From Candidatus Roseilinea mizusawaensis (GTDB taxonomy: Bacteria; Chloroflexota; Anaerolineae; J036; Brachytrichaceae): 64,000 nt of DNA. Position numbers and translations under genes: made by a program. The notes beneath the pieces were generated by a model. It saw only the letters and a program-made list of their open reading frames with translations. It did not search any database and was not told the origin of the DNA. The stretch covers positions 1 to 64,000 of the forward strand of contig JAEANN010000053.1 of NCBI GenBank assembly GCA_016841965.1, written 5' to 3'. Shown here one piece after another: positions 52,534 through 59,279 of the stretch (the first letter of the stretch is position 1; each line of letters starts with the position of its first letter).

Positions 52534-53166
52534 TCAACTTGGTATCTGCGACGGGGAAGAGACCGGCGCGGTCACGAGGTTAATCGGCTGACCCCACCTG
52601 GCCTGAAAAACAAACTCTGCTATAGGCTTGCGTACACGCAGGGCAAGTTCGCGCGCGCGCAGGGCTTCAGGAAGATTGGCGATATCCCCATAGTGGCCGA
52701 TGGCCATGACAACCATCGGTTCAACATGGTCTGGCAGGCCGGCAGCCTGGCGCGCTTTGGATGCTTCGAAGCCGGCCATCTGATGAACAAACAACCCCAG
52801 CGACGTAGCCTGAACAGTAAGATGCGCAACAGCTTGACCCAGGTCATAGTACGAGTAAGGGCCTATGCCGCCCTTGCTTGGGTGTGGCAGCGCGACGGCC
52901 AAAACAAGCAGCGGCGCGCGTGGCGCCCACTCACGATTGTTGCCGGTCAAAGCGTCTTCGATCTGTCGACGTGCATCGCCATCTTCGGCAGTGAAAAGGA
53001 CGAACCCCCATGGCTGATTGTTGCCCCCTGAGGGCGACCATCTGGCCGCCTCGAACAGGCTTAATATCTGATCGGAGTCGATGGGGCGCGAATCGAATGC
53101 GCGCGGACTCCAGCGCGCCTTGAGCAAGGGATGAAGCGGATATTCGTTGTGAGTGGGCTTTTGCAT
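52534..53166 (-). CDS. Nitroreductase family protein
   Basis: This 210 aa flavoprotein of the nitroreductase fold binds FMN. The N-terminal RWSPRAFDSRPI and AARWSPSGGNNQPW (FMN contact) are family signatures, as is YYDLGQAVAHLTVQATSLGL in the middle. The start at 53166 fits the family length; the longer frame adds 22 hydrophobic residues without an SD. Substrates in the family include nitroaromatics, quinones and enals. It stands alone and diverges from the URO-D gene. Confidence 0.92.
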   Translation of the reverse strand: MQKPTHNEYPLHPLLKARWSPRAFDSRPIDSDQILSLFEAARWSPSGGNNQPWGFVLFTAEDGDARRQIEDALTGNNREWAPRAPLLVLAVALPHPSKGGIGPYSYYDLGQAVAHLTVQATSLGLFVHQMAGFEASKARQAAGLPDHVEPMVVMAIGHYGDIANLPEALRARELALRVRKPIAEFVFQARWGQPINLVTAPVSSPSQIPS

Positions 53167-53368
53167 TTCGAGGCCAGACTGTAACGGCAAAAGATTGGCG
53201 AAAGCTGAAAAGCCGATAAGCAAGACAATCATGCCCGAGTCGGCGCCAAGCGGGCGCTGAATCGACGCTATGATTTTGCGCCCTGCAACGCTGGGCGCGT
53301 AGACGTGAGAGACGTACTATGTGTGTGCACCCGCACCCGACAACTGGGCGACGCACAGCAAAAGGGCC

Positions 53369-53374
53369 TACAAT
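53369..53374 (+). promoter_or_regulatory. -10 box close to the URO-D start
   Basis: TACAAT ends 13 bases before ATG 53388, predicting a leader of about six bases with no SD. The -35 region is not evident. Confidence 0.35.
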
Positions 53375-53387
53375 CAGCGGCATCAGC

Positions 53388-54509
53388 ATGCCCATGAGTA
53401 CATCCGCATCAGATTCGGCAGCAACATGGACGCTCGAATACAAGCCCGACGCCGCCAGGGTTGTCGAACGCATGGCTGCCTGGTGGGAAGGCGAGATCAT
53501 CGACCGCGCCACGATTTTGCTCAGCGCGCCAAAGCCGAATGTTCAGCCCTGGCCGGCCAAAACACACACCACCCTGCGTGAGCGCTGGATGGATATCGAC
53601 TATCAAGTGGCATGCGCAGCCATTCATGCGGCCAACACCTACTGGGCCGGCGAGAGCCTGCCCATCTACATGCCCAACCTCGGCCCCGAAATTCTCGCCG
53701 CCTGCTATGGCGCGCCGTTACATTTCACCGAAGACTCATCGTGGTCCGAGCCGATCCTGCACGACTGGGCCGATATCGCCAAACTTCGGATCGACCCAGA
53801 TAACGAATACCTGCGCTGCATCCTGGAGATGACACGCCGCGCATTGGAAGCCGGCCAGGGCAAGTTCCTGGTCGGCCTCACCGATATTCACCCCGGCGGC
53901 GATCTGGCAGCCTCGTTCCGCGACCCACAACAGTTGTGCATCGACCTGGTCGAATCACCAGAGCAAGTGCACGCGCTGATGCATCACATCTACCCGGCCT
54001 TCTTCGATTTTTTCAAGCTCAACCACCAGGTGATCCAAGAAGCCGGCCAGAGCATCTGCACCAGTTGGACGCCCCTGTTCGTCGATGGTGGACGCTACTA
54101 CATCCCCTCCAACGACTTCTCCATCATGATCTCGACCGAGATGTTCGAGGAATTCTTCCTGCCCGAACTGCTGGCCGAGATCGCCTGGCTCGACCGATCG
54201 ATCTATCATCTGGACGGCCCCGGCGCGCTGCGCCACCTCGACACACTGCTTGACATCCCGAAACTAGACGCCATTCAATTTGTATATGGCGACGGCGCCA
54301 AACCCGCCTCGCGTTGGATGCACGTCTTCCAGAAAATTCAAAACGCCGGCAAGAACGCACACATCATGGTCGAGCCGTGGGAGATCGAGTTGTTCATGGA
54401 CAACTTGAACCCCGAAGGTGTCATGCTACAAACCAGCGCCCCTTCTGTAGAAGAAGCTGATGCTATCATTGCCAAAATCGCACGCTGGACCCGCAAAGGG
54501 AAATATTGA
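53388..54509 (+). CDS. Uroporphyrinogen decarboxylase-like (URO-D) domain protein
   Basis: This 373 aa TIM-barrel protein belongs to the URO-D superfamily, which includes the MtaA/CmuA-type cobalamin methyltransferases as well as true HemE. It lacks typical HemE motifs. The zinc motif of MtaA-type enzymes (His-x-Cys) is replaced by YHLDGPGALRHLD, with H274 but no Cys two residues on. It is followed after five bases by an MtaB-like gene, which suggests a joint role in methyl-group transfer or a derived function. The first ATG (53388) is six bases downstream of the expected transcription start. Confidence 0.82.
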   Translation: MPMSTSASDSAATWTLEYKPDAARVVERMAAWWEGEIIDRATILLSAPKPNVQPWPAKTHTTLRERWMDIDYQVACAAIHAANTYWAGESLPIYMPNLGPEILAACYGAPLHFTEDSSWSEPILHDWADIAKLRIDPDNEYLRCILEMTRRALEAGQGKFLVGLTDIHPGGDLAASFRDPQQLCIDLVESPEQVHALMHHIYPAFFDFFKLNHQVIQEAGQSICTSWTPLFVDGGRYYIPSNDFSIMISTEMFEEFFLPELLAEIAWLDRSIYHLDGPGALRHLDTLLDIPKLDAIQFVYGDGAKPASRWMHVFQKIQNAGKNAHIMVEPWEIELFMDNLNPEGVMLQTSAPSVEEADAIIAKIARWTRKGKY

Positions 54510-54514
54510 AAACT

Positions 54515-55915
54515 ATGAGCAATCGCAATAGGGTGCGTTATAGCGCCCTGGCTATTCGCAACCCAGATGATCTTATCTTCGGGCACACGCCGCGCCCGAT
54601 CGAGGCCGGCAACGGCCTGGTGATCGGCGGCGGCACAGTCTATCCGGAGATTAACTTCACTTTGCCGACGATGGAGATCAGCGCCGAGAGCATGTCCGAC
54701 GTGCAATCGCACTATGCCGACATGATCGAAGCCGTATGTACGCGCGCTGTCGAATTGCAGGTTCCCGGCCTGGTTGTGGAGTTCGAGTTGCTGCCTCCCA
54801 TGACGCTGGAGCCGGAGTGGGGGGCCGACATTACCGCCGTCTTGCGTGTGACGCTGGACAAATACGCTAAAGCCGAGGGCTTGAAATGCGCTCTGCGTGT
54901 GACGCCCAACGATATCCGCCCCTACACGCGCCCGCCAAAACTGTATGACGGTGAGATGTGGGACCGCATGATGCGGTCATTTGAGTTATGCGCTGTGGCT
55001 GGGGCCGATATGGTGTCGATCCAATCAACCGGCGGCAAAGAAGTATGCGACGAGGCGCTGCTGTACGGCAACCTGCCTCTGGCTGTGCTGGCTATTGGGG
55101 TGCTGGCATGCCGCGACGTAGCCAGCCTATGGGACGGCATCCTGATGGAGACCGGCAAGCACGGCGTGATCGCCGCCGGCGACAGCGCCGGCGGCTTTGG
55201 CAACACCGCCATGATGCTTGCCCACCAACGCTATATCCCAAAAGTCTGGGCGGCAGTGGTGCGTGTGATGACTGTGGCGCGCACCCTGGCCGCCTATGAG
55301 CACGGCGCAATCGGGCCGGGCAAAGACTCGGCCTATGAAGGGCCGTACATCAAAGCGATCACCGGCTGCCCCATTTCGGCTGCCGCCGCTGAGGCTGCTG
55401 TTGCCTTCCCAATTCCGTTCGGCAACATTGCGCGCGTCGCCGCCGATCTGCTCAGCAACAAGTCGGTGCAAAACGTGAAGTTGTTGGGCGGTATGGCGCC
55501 GGCTGTCTCGGTGGAGCAACTGGCCTATGCCGCGCGCATGTTGAACTGCGCTTCAGCAGGGGGCCGATCCGTCGCCCTGAACATGCGCAACTGCCTGGTT
55601 GAATCCGATGCCCGGCTCGACCCACAAGCGTTTGTCCTGCGCCCCGATGTCGTGATCGATATCGCAGGGCAGATTGTGGCCGAGCCAACGCCTTATCGAC
55701 GCACACGCCGCGCCGCGCAGGCCACACTGGCGGCCCTGCGCGCTGCCCACGCCGACGGCGCGCTGCTGATTCGAGACACCGAACTGAGCTGGCTCGATCG
55801 GCTGTCACGCCAGGTCGATCAGTTGCCAGAGGATGAAAACGAATTCATCGCCAGCACGCTGCACGAGGTGGATCTAAGCCGGGCGCGACTGCAAGATTAC
55901 GGCGTGCTGGCATGA
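54515..55915 (+). CDS. MtaB-like methyltransferase family protein lacking the zinc ligands
   Basis: This 466 aa protein aligns by eye along its whole length with methanol:corrinoid methyltransferase MtaB: AGNGLVIGGGTVYPEINF, GLKCALRVTPNDIRP, STGGKEV, AAGDSAGGFGNTAMM, YEHGAIGPGKD and IKAITG. In MtaB the zinc is bound by Glu164, Cys220 and Cys269. The corresponding residues here appear to be Q170, G226 and S272, so the metal site is abolished. The protein therefore probably does not activate methanol; it may act on another substrate or be structural. No MtaC-like corrinoid protein is adjacent. The comparison was made from memory. Confidence 0.85.
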   Translation: MSNRNRVRYSALAIRNPDDLIFGHTPRPIEAGNGLVIGGGTVYPEINFTLPTMEISAESMSDVQSHYADMIEAVCTRAVELQVPGLVVEFELLPPMTLEPEWGADITAVLRVTLDKYAKAEGLKCALRVTPNDIRPYTRPPKLYDGEMWDRMMRSFELCAVAGADMVSIQSTGGKEVCDEALLYGNLPLAVLAIGVLACRDVASLWDGILMETGKHGVIAAGDSAGGFGNTAMMLAHQRYIPKVWAAVVRVMTVARTLAAYEHGAIGPGKDSAYEGPYIKAITGCPISAAAAEAAVAFPIPFGNIARVAADLLSNKSVQNVKLLGGMAPAVSVEQLAYAARMLNCASAGGRSVALNMRNCLVESDARLDPQAFVLRPDVVIDIAGQIVAEPTPYRRTRRAAQATLAALRAAHADGALLIRDTELSWLDRLSRQVDQLPEDENEFIASTLHEVDLSRARLQDYGVLA

Positions 55916-55934
55916 CCCACACCCACATCACATC

Positions 55935-56963
55935 ATGAGCCGATCGCATTCTCTCCAATCTCTCCAAAAACGCAAAAACACATCTGGTCTGTGGAATGGC
56001 CTTGCGCTGATCAAGATGGCCGGCATCGCCACAGCCGCCGGCTGGATCGCCTACAGCCGCAAAGTCATCGATCACAGCTTGCCCTTTCCCAACGCGGTCA
56101 ACGCACCCCGGCGCTTGATGCCAAGCGCAACGTGTGGCATGCTGAACTTCTACAGCGACCGGTCAGGGACAGGCCGGCCGCTAGTGTTGCTGCATGCGAT
56201 TAACGCTGCTGCATCGGCTTATGAGACACGGCCACTATTTCATCACTATCAGGGGCAACGGCCTGTGTTTGCGCTGGAACTGCCGGGGTTTGGGTTCTCG
56301 GAGCGATCCAACCGGGTCTATTCGGCGCAGCTCTACCAGGAGGCCATCATCCAGTTTCTAGAGCGCGAAGTCAAAGCGCCGTCCGATGTAGTGGCGCTAT
56401 CGCTCAGCAGCGAGTTCGCCGCCTCGGCGGCGCTGGCGCGTCCCGAGCTGTTCGTTTCATTGGCGTTGATCTCGCCGAGCGGCCTGCGCCCACGCAATAC
56501 CGGCCGCGCCACACAACGCGCCAACGACAGCGGCGTGAGCGACATTGCGCACAAGGTACTGTCTTATCCGCTATGGGGGCAGGCGTTCTTCGACCTGCTG
56601 GCCACGCGCAAGAGCATTCGCTGGTTCTTGCAACAAAGCTTCGCCGGGCCGGTGGATGAGGGACTGGTCGAGTATGCCTATCTCACCAGCCACCAGATCG
56701 GTGCGCACCATGCCCCGCTCTACTTCGTCAGCGGCAAGCTGTTCACGCGCGATGTGGCTGCGCGCGTCTATGAGCGATTGACCACGCCGACGCTAGCGCT
56801 TTACGATCAGGATCCTTACACCCGCTTCGACCTGTTGCCACGTGTGCTGGAGCGTAATGCTCAGTGGCGCGCGGAACGCATTTGGCCGACGCGCGGCTTG
56901 CCCCACTTCGAGAAGTTGCCTGAAACGACTCGGGCGCTGGATGCATTTTGGGCCGGCCATTGA
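55935..56963 (+). CDS. Alpha/beta hydrolase
   Basis: This 342 aa protein has the alpha/beta hydrolase fold: LVLLHAINAAASAYE (oxyanion region), VFALELPGFGFSER, and a nucleophile elbow reading ALSLSSEFAA, unusual because the GxSxG glycines are serines. Acidic and His triad members probably lie near ALYDQDPYTRFD and GLPHFEKLPE. An N-terminal hydrophobic segment (about 26-42) may anchor it to the membrane. The first codons include a 9-bp duplication (TCTCTCCAA, 55950-55967). It lies 19 bases after the MtaB-like gene. The substrate is unknown. Confidence 0.82.
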   Translation: MSRSHSLQSLQKRKNTSGLWNGLALIKMAGIATAAGWIAYSRKVIDHSLPFPNAVNAPRRLMPSATCGMLNFYSDRSGTGRPLVLLHAINAAASAYETRPLFHHYQGQRPVFALELPGFGFSERSNRVYSAQLYQEAIIQFLEREVKAPSDVVALSLSSEFAASAALARPELFVSLALISPSGLRPRNTGRATQRANDSGVSDIAHKVLSYPLWGQAFFDLLATRKSIRWFLQQSFAGPVDEGLVEYAYLTSHQIGAHHAPLYFVSGKLFTRDVAARVYERLTTPTLALYDQDPYTRFDLLPRVLERNAQWRAERIWPTRGLPHFEKLPETTRALDAFWAGH

Positions 56964-57089: not shown

Positions 57090-59279
57090 TTATCTGTCGG
57101 CACACAGAACACGTCGCTCTCCTGGCTGAAGCTGCAGCGTAACATCCTCGCCGCCAAACGGCGCAGCCAGCCGGCACACCCCACCCTGCTCGGCCACAAC
57201 CTCCAGCCAGGCCACCCGGCCCCCGACGCGCTGCGCCGACACAAGAAACGCCCCCTCGGCCCGCAGCGTGGTGAAAGACACGTCGCGCCAGGCATCGGGC
57301 ACGGCCGGGAACAGGCGGATGACGCCGCGCTGGCTTTGCAGCAGCATCTCCTGCACGCCGGCAGCGGCGGCAAAGTTGCCCTCCAGCGTGAAGGGATCGT
57401 AGGTGAACTGCGAGTAGCCCTTGCCCGACTGGTCGCCGTTGCAGTGAAAGCTGTTGCGCAGTGTGAAAGCGGAGGCGAAGATCTCCAGCGCCTGCTCTGC
57501 CCTGGCCCCATCGCGCGCACGCGCAGCTTGACTGGCCAGCCACGCAAAACTGTAACCGCACCAGAAACTCGTGCCCACGCGCTCCAGTTCATTCAGAGAC
57601 GCGCGAATAGTCTGCTGTGCATCGGGGCCATCTTCCCAGTCGATCAAACCGAGTGGATGAATCGCCATCAGGTGCGAGAAGTGACGATGCGATTCCGGCA
57701 ACGGATAGTCGCGCGTAATGAGGAGCCGGCCATCCGCGCCACGCGCAAAGTCAGCGCACTCGGCCAGCACGCCGCGCCAGTGCGCGGCCTCGCCGGCCAG
57801 CCCTACTTCATCCGCCAGCTCGGCCGTCGCGCCCAACAGCCAACGCATCAACGCCAAATCATAGTTGGTCAGCGTGTCGAACCAGGCCGAGGGCAAGTTG
57901 TCGTTGATCTCCGGCGACGCACTGAGGGGCAGCGTGCGATAGCCCTGGGCATCGCGCTGCGCACTGACCGCCTCGATAAACACGCTGGCGTCGCGCAGAT
58001 ACGGATAGGCGCGCTGGCGCAGAAAGTCACGATCGGCGCTGTATTTCCAGTGCAGGTAGAAGTGCTGGGCCAGCCAGGCGGCCGTCGTCGGCGAATGCGT
58101 GTACTGCCGCCAGCCACCGATCTGGTTGTTGTTCAGGTCGGCAGTCATCGGCACGTTCAACCCAGGCAACCCGAAGAAGCGGCGCGTCCAGTCGAAGCAA
58201 GCCGGGCGCGTCTCCCACAGCCAGTCCAGATAACTCAATCCCTCTTCCAGGTGATTGCCGCTGTAGCAGGGCCAATAACTCAACTGGGTATTGAGGTCGT
58301 GATGATAGTCGCCTTTCCAGGGCGGTAGCCCGCCGTCATCCGCCGTCCACGGGCCTTGCAGGGTGATGGGTGGAGCGCCGCGCCGGCTGGCTGCGCCAAA
58401 CTTGTACGTGTCCAGATACCACTGCCGTTCGATGACAGGGTTGGGCAAGCGCACGGCTGATTGCGCCCAGAACGCGCGCCACCATGCGGCGTGAGATGCA
58501 CACTTTTCATCGAACCCGGCCTCGAGAGCAGCCTCGACGCGCGCGCGGGCAATCGCGGGCGGGTCATCGCCCTCGAAACTGCTGGCGATACTCCAGGCTG
58601 CTTCCCACGCGCCGCCGGCTTCACGCCACGCAAGATGCGCGGCAAACCAGAAACCTGCTGCGCCTTGCTGGGCAAACGCCCGCCACGAGGGACCGGCAGT
58701 GTGCTCTGGCGGCGGGTATCCCAGTTGAGCCAGATCGCCCGCGCGAATGCCGCCCGCCGCAGCCTCGCTCACGGCGCCGCCAAACGCCGGCGCAACCAGC
58801 GCCGCCTCGGGCACAACGCCCTGCACGCGAATGAGTCCCACCGGCTCGGTGGCATGCACAAAGACACGCACAGTCGCGCGGTTGTTCAACTGGACACTGG
58901 CTAATGCGTCGCGCAGGCTGAGAGTGGCCGCTGCAAACTCAACACCGGCGGGGAACGACAGGTGGATACGGCCGGCGGGAATCTTGGTCGGCGCAGGCCG
59001 GTTGTAGGGCGCTTCGTACAGGCGCACCAGATCATCATGCCGGCCGGCGCGATGCCATGCGATCATCTGTGCGTAGGTGTACTCTGGCAAATGAAACTCA
59101 GGCACGGGGCGCAGGTCCCACAGGTCTGTGCGGTCGAGCGACAGGGTGAGCGGGTGGCCATCGCCCCACACCAGCGCGCCAAGCATACCGTTGCCGAGCG
59201 GGAAGGCTTCGTTCCATTTTGTAGCCGGGCGGGTGTAGTGCAGATCGTGTTGAGCGTTGGGTAGATCAATCATGTTCAT
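57090..59279 (-). CDS. Glycoside hydrolase family 95-like enzyme
   Basis: This 729 aa protein resembles GH95 alpha-L-fucosidases/galactosidases, inverting enzymes with a (alpha/alpha)6 barrel. It starts with WNEAFPLGNGMLGALVWG, as is typical, and continues with GDYHHDLNTQLSYWP, RHFSHLMAIHPL and FTLEGNFAAAAGVQEML near the end. No signal peptide is seen, so it would act on imported oligosaccharides. ATG 59279 or 59273 are both possible. Its start overlaps the small upstream ORF by 14 bases, so translation is probably coupled. It is the last gene of the minus-strand operon. Confidence 0.85.
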   Translation of the reverse strand: MNMIDLPNAQHDLHYTRPATKWNEAFPLGNGMLGALVWGDGHPLTLSLDRTDLWDLRPVPEFHLPEYTYAQMIAWHRAGRHDDLVRLYEAPYNRPAPTKIPAGRIHLSFPAGVEFAAATLSLRDALASVQLNNRATVRVFVHATEPVGLIRVQGVVPEAALVAPAFGGAVSEAAAGGIRAGDLAQLGYPPPEHTAGPSWRAFAQQGAAGFWFAAHLAWREAGGAWEAAWSIASSFEGDDPPAIARARVEAALEAGFDEKCASHAAWWRAFWAQSAVRLPNPVIERQWYLDTYKFGAASRRGAPPITLQGPWTADDGGLPPWKGDYHHDLNTQLSYWPCYSGNHLEEGLSYLDWLWETRPACFDWTRRFFGLPGLNVPMTADLNNNQIGGWRQYTHSPTTAAWLAQHFYLHWKYSADRDFLRQRAYPYLRDASVFIEAVSAQRDAQGYRTLPLSASPEINDNLPSAWFDTLTNYDLALMRWLLGATAELADEVGLAGEAAHWRGVLAECADFARGADGRLLITRDYPLPESHRHFSHLMAIHPLGLIDWEDGPDAQQTIRASLNELERVGTSFWCGYSFAWLASQAARARDGARAEQALEIFASAFTLRNSFHCNGDQSGKGYSQFTYDPFTLEGNFAAAAGVQEMLLQSQRGVIRLFPAVPDAWRDVSFTTLRAEGAFLVSAQRVGGRVAWLEVVAEQGGVCRLAAPFGGEDVTLQLQPGERRVLCADR

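Follow-up and report, generated by a model that had tools for sequence, protein, structure and literature searches.

An MtaB-family paralogue with replaced zinc ligands in Candidatus Roseilinea mizusawaensis

The MtaB-B gene and its zinc-ligand positions

The window considered here, i.e. the whole 64,000-nucleotide stretch at positions 1 to 64,000 of contig JAEANN010000053.1 from the Chloroflexota bacterium Candidatus Roseilinea mizusawaensis (assembly GCA_016841965.1), encodes on its forward strand a 466-residue paralogue of the methanol methyltransferase MtaB, in which the zinc ligands are missing and which we term MtaB-B (54515..55915). The reading frame is intact, running from an ATG at 54515 to a stop codon at 55913-55915, with a TTG at 54506 as an alternative start. 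Its product belongs to the MtaB family: PF12176 is the sole Pfam profile that it matches (452.9 bits against a cut-off of 25, over residues 8-453), and its sole sequence relative in the PDB is the Methanosarcina barkeri MtaB (2I2X; E 4e-63). It scores 325.6 bits against the NCBIfam equivalog profile for MtaB (NF040651; cut-off 720); this failure does not discriminate by itself, since a zinc-intact Chloroflexota homologue, paralogue A, likewise falls short at 390 bits. MtaB-B is the single MtaB copy of the window genome and has orthologues in two related genomes (L012 in G420, 84% identical; L014 in G419, 77%). Searches of plasmids, phages and viral contigs recovered no relatives. The AlphaFold models of MtaB-B and of F1, the product of the gene upstream, were each built on three orthologues and were too poor for use (mean predicted local distance difference test scores, pLDDT, of 39 and 53).

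The zinc ligands of M. barkeri MtaB, which we take to be Glu164, Cys220 and Cys269 (2I2X numbering, used hereafter for family positions) in agreement with the residues in the 2I2X sequence, correspond to Gln170 (codon CAA, 55022..55024), Gly226 (55190..55192) and Ser272 (55328..55330) in MtaB-B, both in the alignment with 2I2X and in a MAFFT alignment of the homologues. The contexts of the replaced residues are conserved and locally ungapped, namely SI(Q)STGGKE, GDSA(G)GFGNTAM and GPGKD(S)AYE, which bears out the original prediction of these three residues in conserved surroundings, made from the letters of the window. Neither alignment places a Cys or His ligand at the zinc site, and no new His or Cys has arisen at the ligand positions or next to them. 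In the two orthologues the first Cys is replaced by Gly and the second by Ala or Ser, and the Glu is retained. As this Glu is encoded by GAA in both orthologues and replaced through CAA in the window, the Cys losses are clade-wide and the Glu-to-Gln change is confined to the window species; the prediction that all three ligands are replaced hence holds for that species, but for the clade as a whole only with respect to both Cys. All non-B homologues whose sequence reaches these positions, L098 included, have retained Glu, Cys and Cys, in a comparison that spans Methanosarcina, paralogue A, five other families of Anaerolineae and a single genome from a further class of Chloroflexota. Judging from its primary structure, MtaB-B would bind no zinc at this site and is predicted to be zinc-free.

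Further substitutions, paralogy and selection

The replacements extend beyond the ligands. Among 73 alignment columns that are invariant in all non-B homologues, MtaB-B keeps 63 and departs from ten, with all three zinc ligands among the latter (hypergeometric P 0.002). Six of these columns differ in all three clade B sequences, i.e. C220G, C269S/A, E287A, C293V, H295F and W310L/I; the chance of hitting at least two ligands with six changes among the 73 is 0.016. Outside the ligand codons, the clade-wide changes lie in the segment from Ala290 to Phe298 (55382..55408; E287A, C293V and H295F) and at Leu313 (for W310), which shares the interval 55451..55462 with Lys316. The changes E164Q, D180N (Asn186, 55070..55072) and E313K (Lys316) are found in the window species only, and G288A is common to it and L014. 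Taken together, the clade-wide substitutions, in which Cys, Cys, Glu, Cys, His and Trp give way to Gly, Ser/Ala, Ala, Val, Phe and Leu/Ile, point toward a metal-free, non-polar cavity. In a 73%-identical MtaB, the methanol hydroxyl lies near zinc, C219 or E312 (PMC6855144), the two residues being C220 and E313 in the 2I2X numbering with a one-residue offset. The methanol-contacting Glu is retained in both orthologues and is Lys316 in the window protein; with E313K and the three ligand changes, the latter is left without any zinc ligand and without the methanol contact.

These data also bear on whether metal-binding was relocated rather than lost, with other residues of clade B holding zinc or another metal nearby and the Glu170 of the orthologues serving as a leftover ligand. 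Such a site could draw on the Glu kept in two of the three proteins, and on C178, C345 and H237, which are conserved in clade B and absent or uncommon elsewhere. However, these three residues are without structural support as ligands, the Glu too is lost in the window protein, no His or Cys has been gained at or beside the ligand positions, and the nearby C293 and H295 have themselves been replaced. We accordingly regard a relocated or different metal site as improbable.

Maximum-likelihood trees unite the three B proteins in one clade (support 100/100) and gather the zinc-intact A proteins, which come from the same taxonomic family, in a second (100/100). Clade B groups weakly with L030, an MtaB-like protein of another family (88/87), and a single clade of A and B is not rejected (approximately unbiased test, p-AU 0.13); the stem of B (0.46) is longer than that of A (0.19). 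The sister species hold the zinc-intact A in addition to B, so that B is a paralogue; in the window genome, at 99% completeness, no A was found. PF12176 is rare in Chloroflexota, occurring in 2 of 400 genomes sampled across the phylum and 11 of 396 sampled across the class, and in 911 overlapping genome scans the zinc-less members were seen only in these three species. Within the sampled Chloroflexota genomes, clade B is thus restricted to three congeneric Thermoflexales-like species. The expectation that the substitutions would mark a clade is upheld for the Cys losses and fails for the change of Glu to Gln. Likewise, the notion of a distinct family stands insofar as the family signature is kept and the zinc site lost; however, the proteins form a paralogue in three congeneric species and not a broad family.

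Clade B is under purifying selection. The ratio of non-synonymous to synonymous substitution rates (dN/dS) is 0.08-0.13 for mtaB-B and 0.05-0.10 for the neighboring F1 gene, low values by which both can be taken to encode constrained proteins. This is relevant to the idea that clade B switched function as a whole and that the window copy, with its E164Q, D180N and E313K, is now losing that function. The private changes do fall unevenly, with three at invariant acidic residues in the window protein, one in L014 and none in L012 at the same threshold. However, the frame and operon of the window copy are intact, its differences from L012 are concentrated at third codon positions (158 of 240), and the pairwise dN/dS values that involve it are as low as those that do not, showing no clear relaxation by that measure. 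We therefore consider functional decay in the window species the most doubtful of the explanations.

The operon and the corrinoid machinery

Upstream of mtaB-B on the same strand lies F1 (53319..54509; true start probably 53391), whose stop codon is separated from the start of mtaB-B by 5 base pairs in all three species. F1 itself matches no profile of Pfam or NCBIfam and appears to be distantly UroD-like: a comparison with URO-D proteins using hhalign gave P 5e-4 and a probability of 32%, and three of seven of its relatives show weak URO-D matches. A fold search with the F1 model returned TIM-barrel matches only, all of them insignificant. F1 carries an HLDG motif in place of the H-x-C of MtaA-like proteins. 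Its relatives in other Chloroflexota (30-40% identical) adjoin FGGY sugar kinases, sugar transport and other sugar genes. Downstream of mtaB-B is an alpha/beta hydrolase (55935..56963, forward strand), with an orthologue (85%) after B in L012 and its start visible at the contig end in L014. A divergent gene of the nitroreductase family (52534..53232, reverse strand; family F4, PF00881 for the L003 orthologue) precedes F1 in all three species. In G419, a URO-D protein with MtaA as its best PDB match and an HLCG motif is encoded directly 5' of F1, which connects the B operon with methyl transfer for at least one of the species. A GH95-family glycoside hydrolase is encoded on the opposite strand just past the operon (57090-59279). 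Given the neighboring sugar genes and the hydrolase, MtaB-B might conceivably act on sugar methyl ethers or methyl esters.

An alternative is a non-catalytic paralogue, which would act as a structural or regulatory subunit by binding a corrinoid protein, F1 or some small ligand. Beyond the strict 5-base-pair coupling to F1 in all three species, such a pseudoenzyme would fit the loss of two of three catalytic ligands in all members and of the third in one, as well as the want of a corrinoid-protein gene adjoining mtaB-B; further, purifying selection is equally compatible with a binding role. However, the replacing residues are for their part conserved among the B proteins (G226, A290, V296 and F298), which speaks more for a remodelled site than for drift, and the existence of zinc-free methyltransferases means that ligand loss alone is no proof of inactivity. 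On balance, we see a pseudoenzyme as the main alternative, serious if somewhat unlikely.

Elsewhere, the window genome encodes the activase RACo and, on contig C57, a corrinoid protein that adjoins a stand-alone homocysteine S-methyltransferase (the two together at L037 490-2128). The best NCBIfam match of this corrinoid protein is to the MtgC type, below the cut-off. The two genes also lie side by side in G420 and G407, and as far as the contig end in G419; conserved in four related genomes, the pair resembles a divided pathway leading from a methyl donor to methionine. In G420 and G407, a second corrinoid protein adjoins mtaB-A, and the search of the window genome yielded neither gene; a remnant of mtaB-A was sought at the C57 corrinoid-protein locus without success. 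In the same two genomes RACo stands beside an MtaA-like URO-D protein, whose motif in G420 is HICG, and RACo of the window genome has no such neighbor. The G407 locus (contig C38; L087 259-6520) combines RACo, the MtaA-like URO-D protein, a second URO-D protein, a homocysteine methyltransferase and a corrinoid protein, in what resembles a corrinoid methyl-transfer cluster with an apparent exit to methionine. No MttB-family (PF06253) protein was found in the window genome or in three relatives; with a single MtaB copy, this makes MtaB-B the sole MtaB/MttB protein of the window species.

AraC-type regulators are encoded upstream of the zinc-intact mtaB-A (L013 8521-9708 and L015 667-1881), the L013 copy with a PocR sensory domain, and are candidate sensors of C1 substrates. 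The zinc-intact MtaB-like gene of G548 (L030 6003-11213) adjoins genes for a xylose-isomerase-like protein and a Gfo/Idh/MocA oxidoreductase. A Gfo/Idh gene likewise neighbors the MtaB gene of G426 (L028), and the two loci hint at a connection with the metabolism of sugars or cyclitols.

Proposed function and comparison with known systems

We tentatively favor, at somewhat less than an even chance, the reading of MtaB-B as a lineage-specific MtaB paralogue turned into a zinc-free corrinoid methyltransferase I for a methyl donor other than methanol. Here, the MtaB scaffold and most family-invariant residues would have been retained, while small and hydrophobic residues would have replaced the Lewis-acid site that activates methanol. 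The protein would present to the Co(I) of a corrinoid protein, possibly that encoded on C57, a donor that needs no activation by metal, and the methyl group might then pass to homocysteine or another acceptor. The lack of zinc, the methyl transfer itself, the partner and the donor are inferences in this reading. It is favored because neither Cys is present in any of the three B proteins, and both are present in all other homologues. It further draws on the polar-to-non-polar changes, the low dN/dS, the MtaA-like gene in G419 and the presence of the corrinoid protein, homocysteine methyltransferase and RACo, and the zinc-free principle has a precedent in CdmB (PMC13222342). A more specific form, in which MtaB duplicated, its zinc site was dismantled, the window protein put K316 in place of the methanol-contacting Glu and the HLDG-bearing UroD-like protein became its partner, with a non-methanol donor possibly tied to carbohydrate breakdown, appears to us unlikely.

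Several observations weigh against a zinc-free methyltransferase. First, the window operon and the orthologous B loci contain no corrinoid-protein gene. Second, the C57 corrinoid protein is common to species that also have mtaB-A, and so need not serve MtaB-B. Third, no MtaB was seen near the F1 relatives in the sugar loci of Chloroflexota. Finally, the window protein is unlike its own orthologues at E164 and E313, which is odd for one conserved reaction.

Since the zinc ligands have gone and selection nonetheless persists, the methanol-enzyme label of the databases is probably misplaced and the protein would probably act on another compound; annotation of MtaB-B as a methanol methyltransferase is very probably wrong. 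The misannotation foreseen for such sequences is borne out to the extent that Pfam would attach that label, even though the protein is far under the NF040651 cut-off. By implication, a Pfam match to MtaB is by itself insufficient for inferring methanol use from a genome.

For the activation of methanol by zinc, MtaB is the reference example. MtaB-B resembles it in full-length homology, in the shared family-invariant residues and presumably in the TIM-barrel scaffold, but has Q, G and S for E164, C220 and C269, is altered at E287, C293, H295, W310 and E313, and is paired with a UroD-like protein rather than having an adjoining mtaC. The closest contrast is with paralogue A (L006, L007 and L008), which is about 60% identical to B (62, 59 and 62%) and comes from the same genus in two cases, but keeps E, C and C and is adjoined by a corrinoid-protein gene in G420 and G407. 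As such, A and B of one genus offer a matched pair for asking how far corrinoid methyl transfer depends on metal. MtgB (PMC6855144) and other non-pyrrolysine members of the MttB superfamily are corrinoid methyltransferases I that operate without the zinc site of MtaB. They constitute a separate family (PF06253), without a match to MtaB-B and absent from the window genome. CdmB, in turn, is a zinc-free chloromethane methyltransferase I of the UroD family with a substrate-guiding scaffold: its structure holds no zinc, neither EDTA (ethylenediaminetetraacetate) nor zinc affects its activity, and its cavity guides haloalkanes to cobalamin (PMC13222342). While CdmB belongs to the UroD superfamily and MtaB-B matches PF12176 only, the two may be functionally analogous, each as a corrinoid methyltransferase I that would work without zinc around a non-polar cavity.
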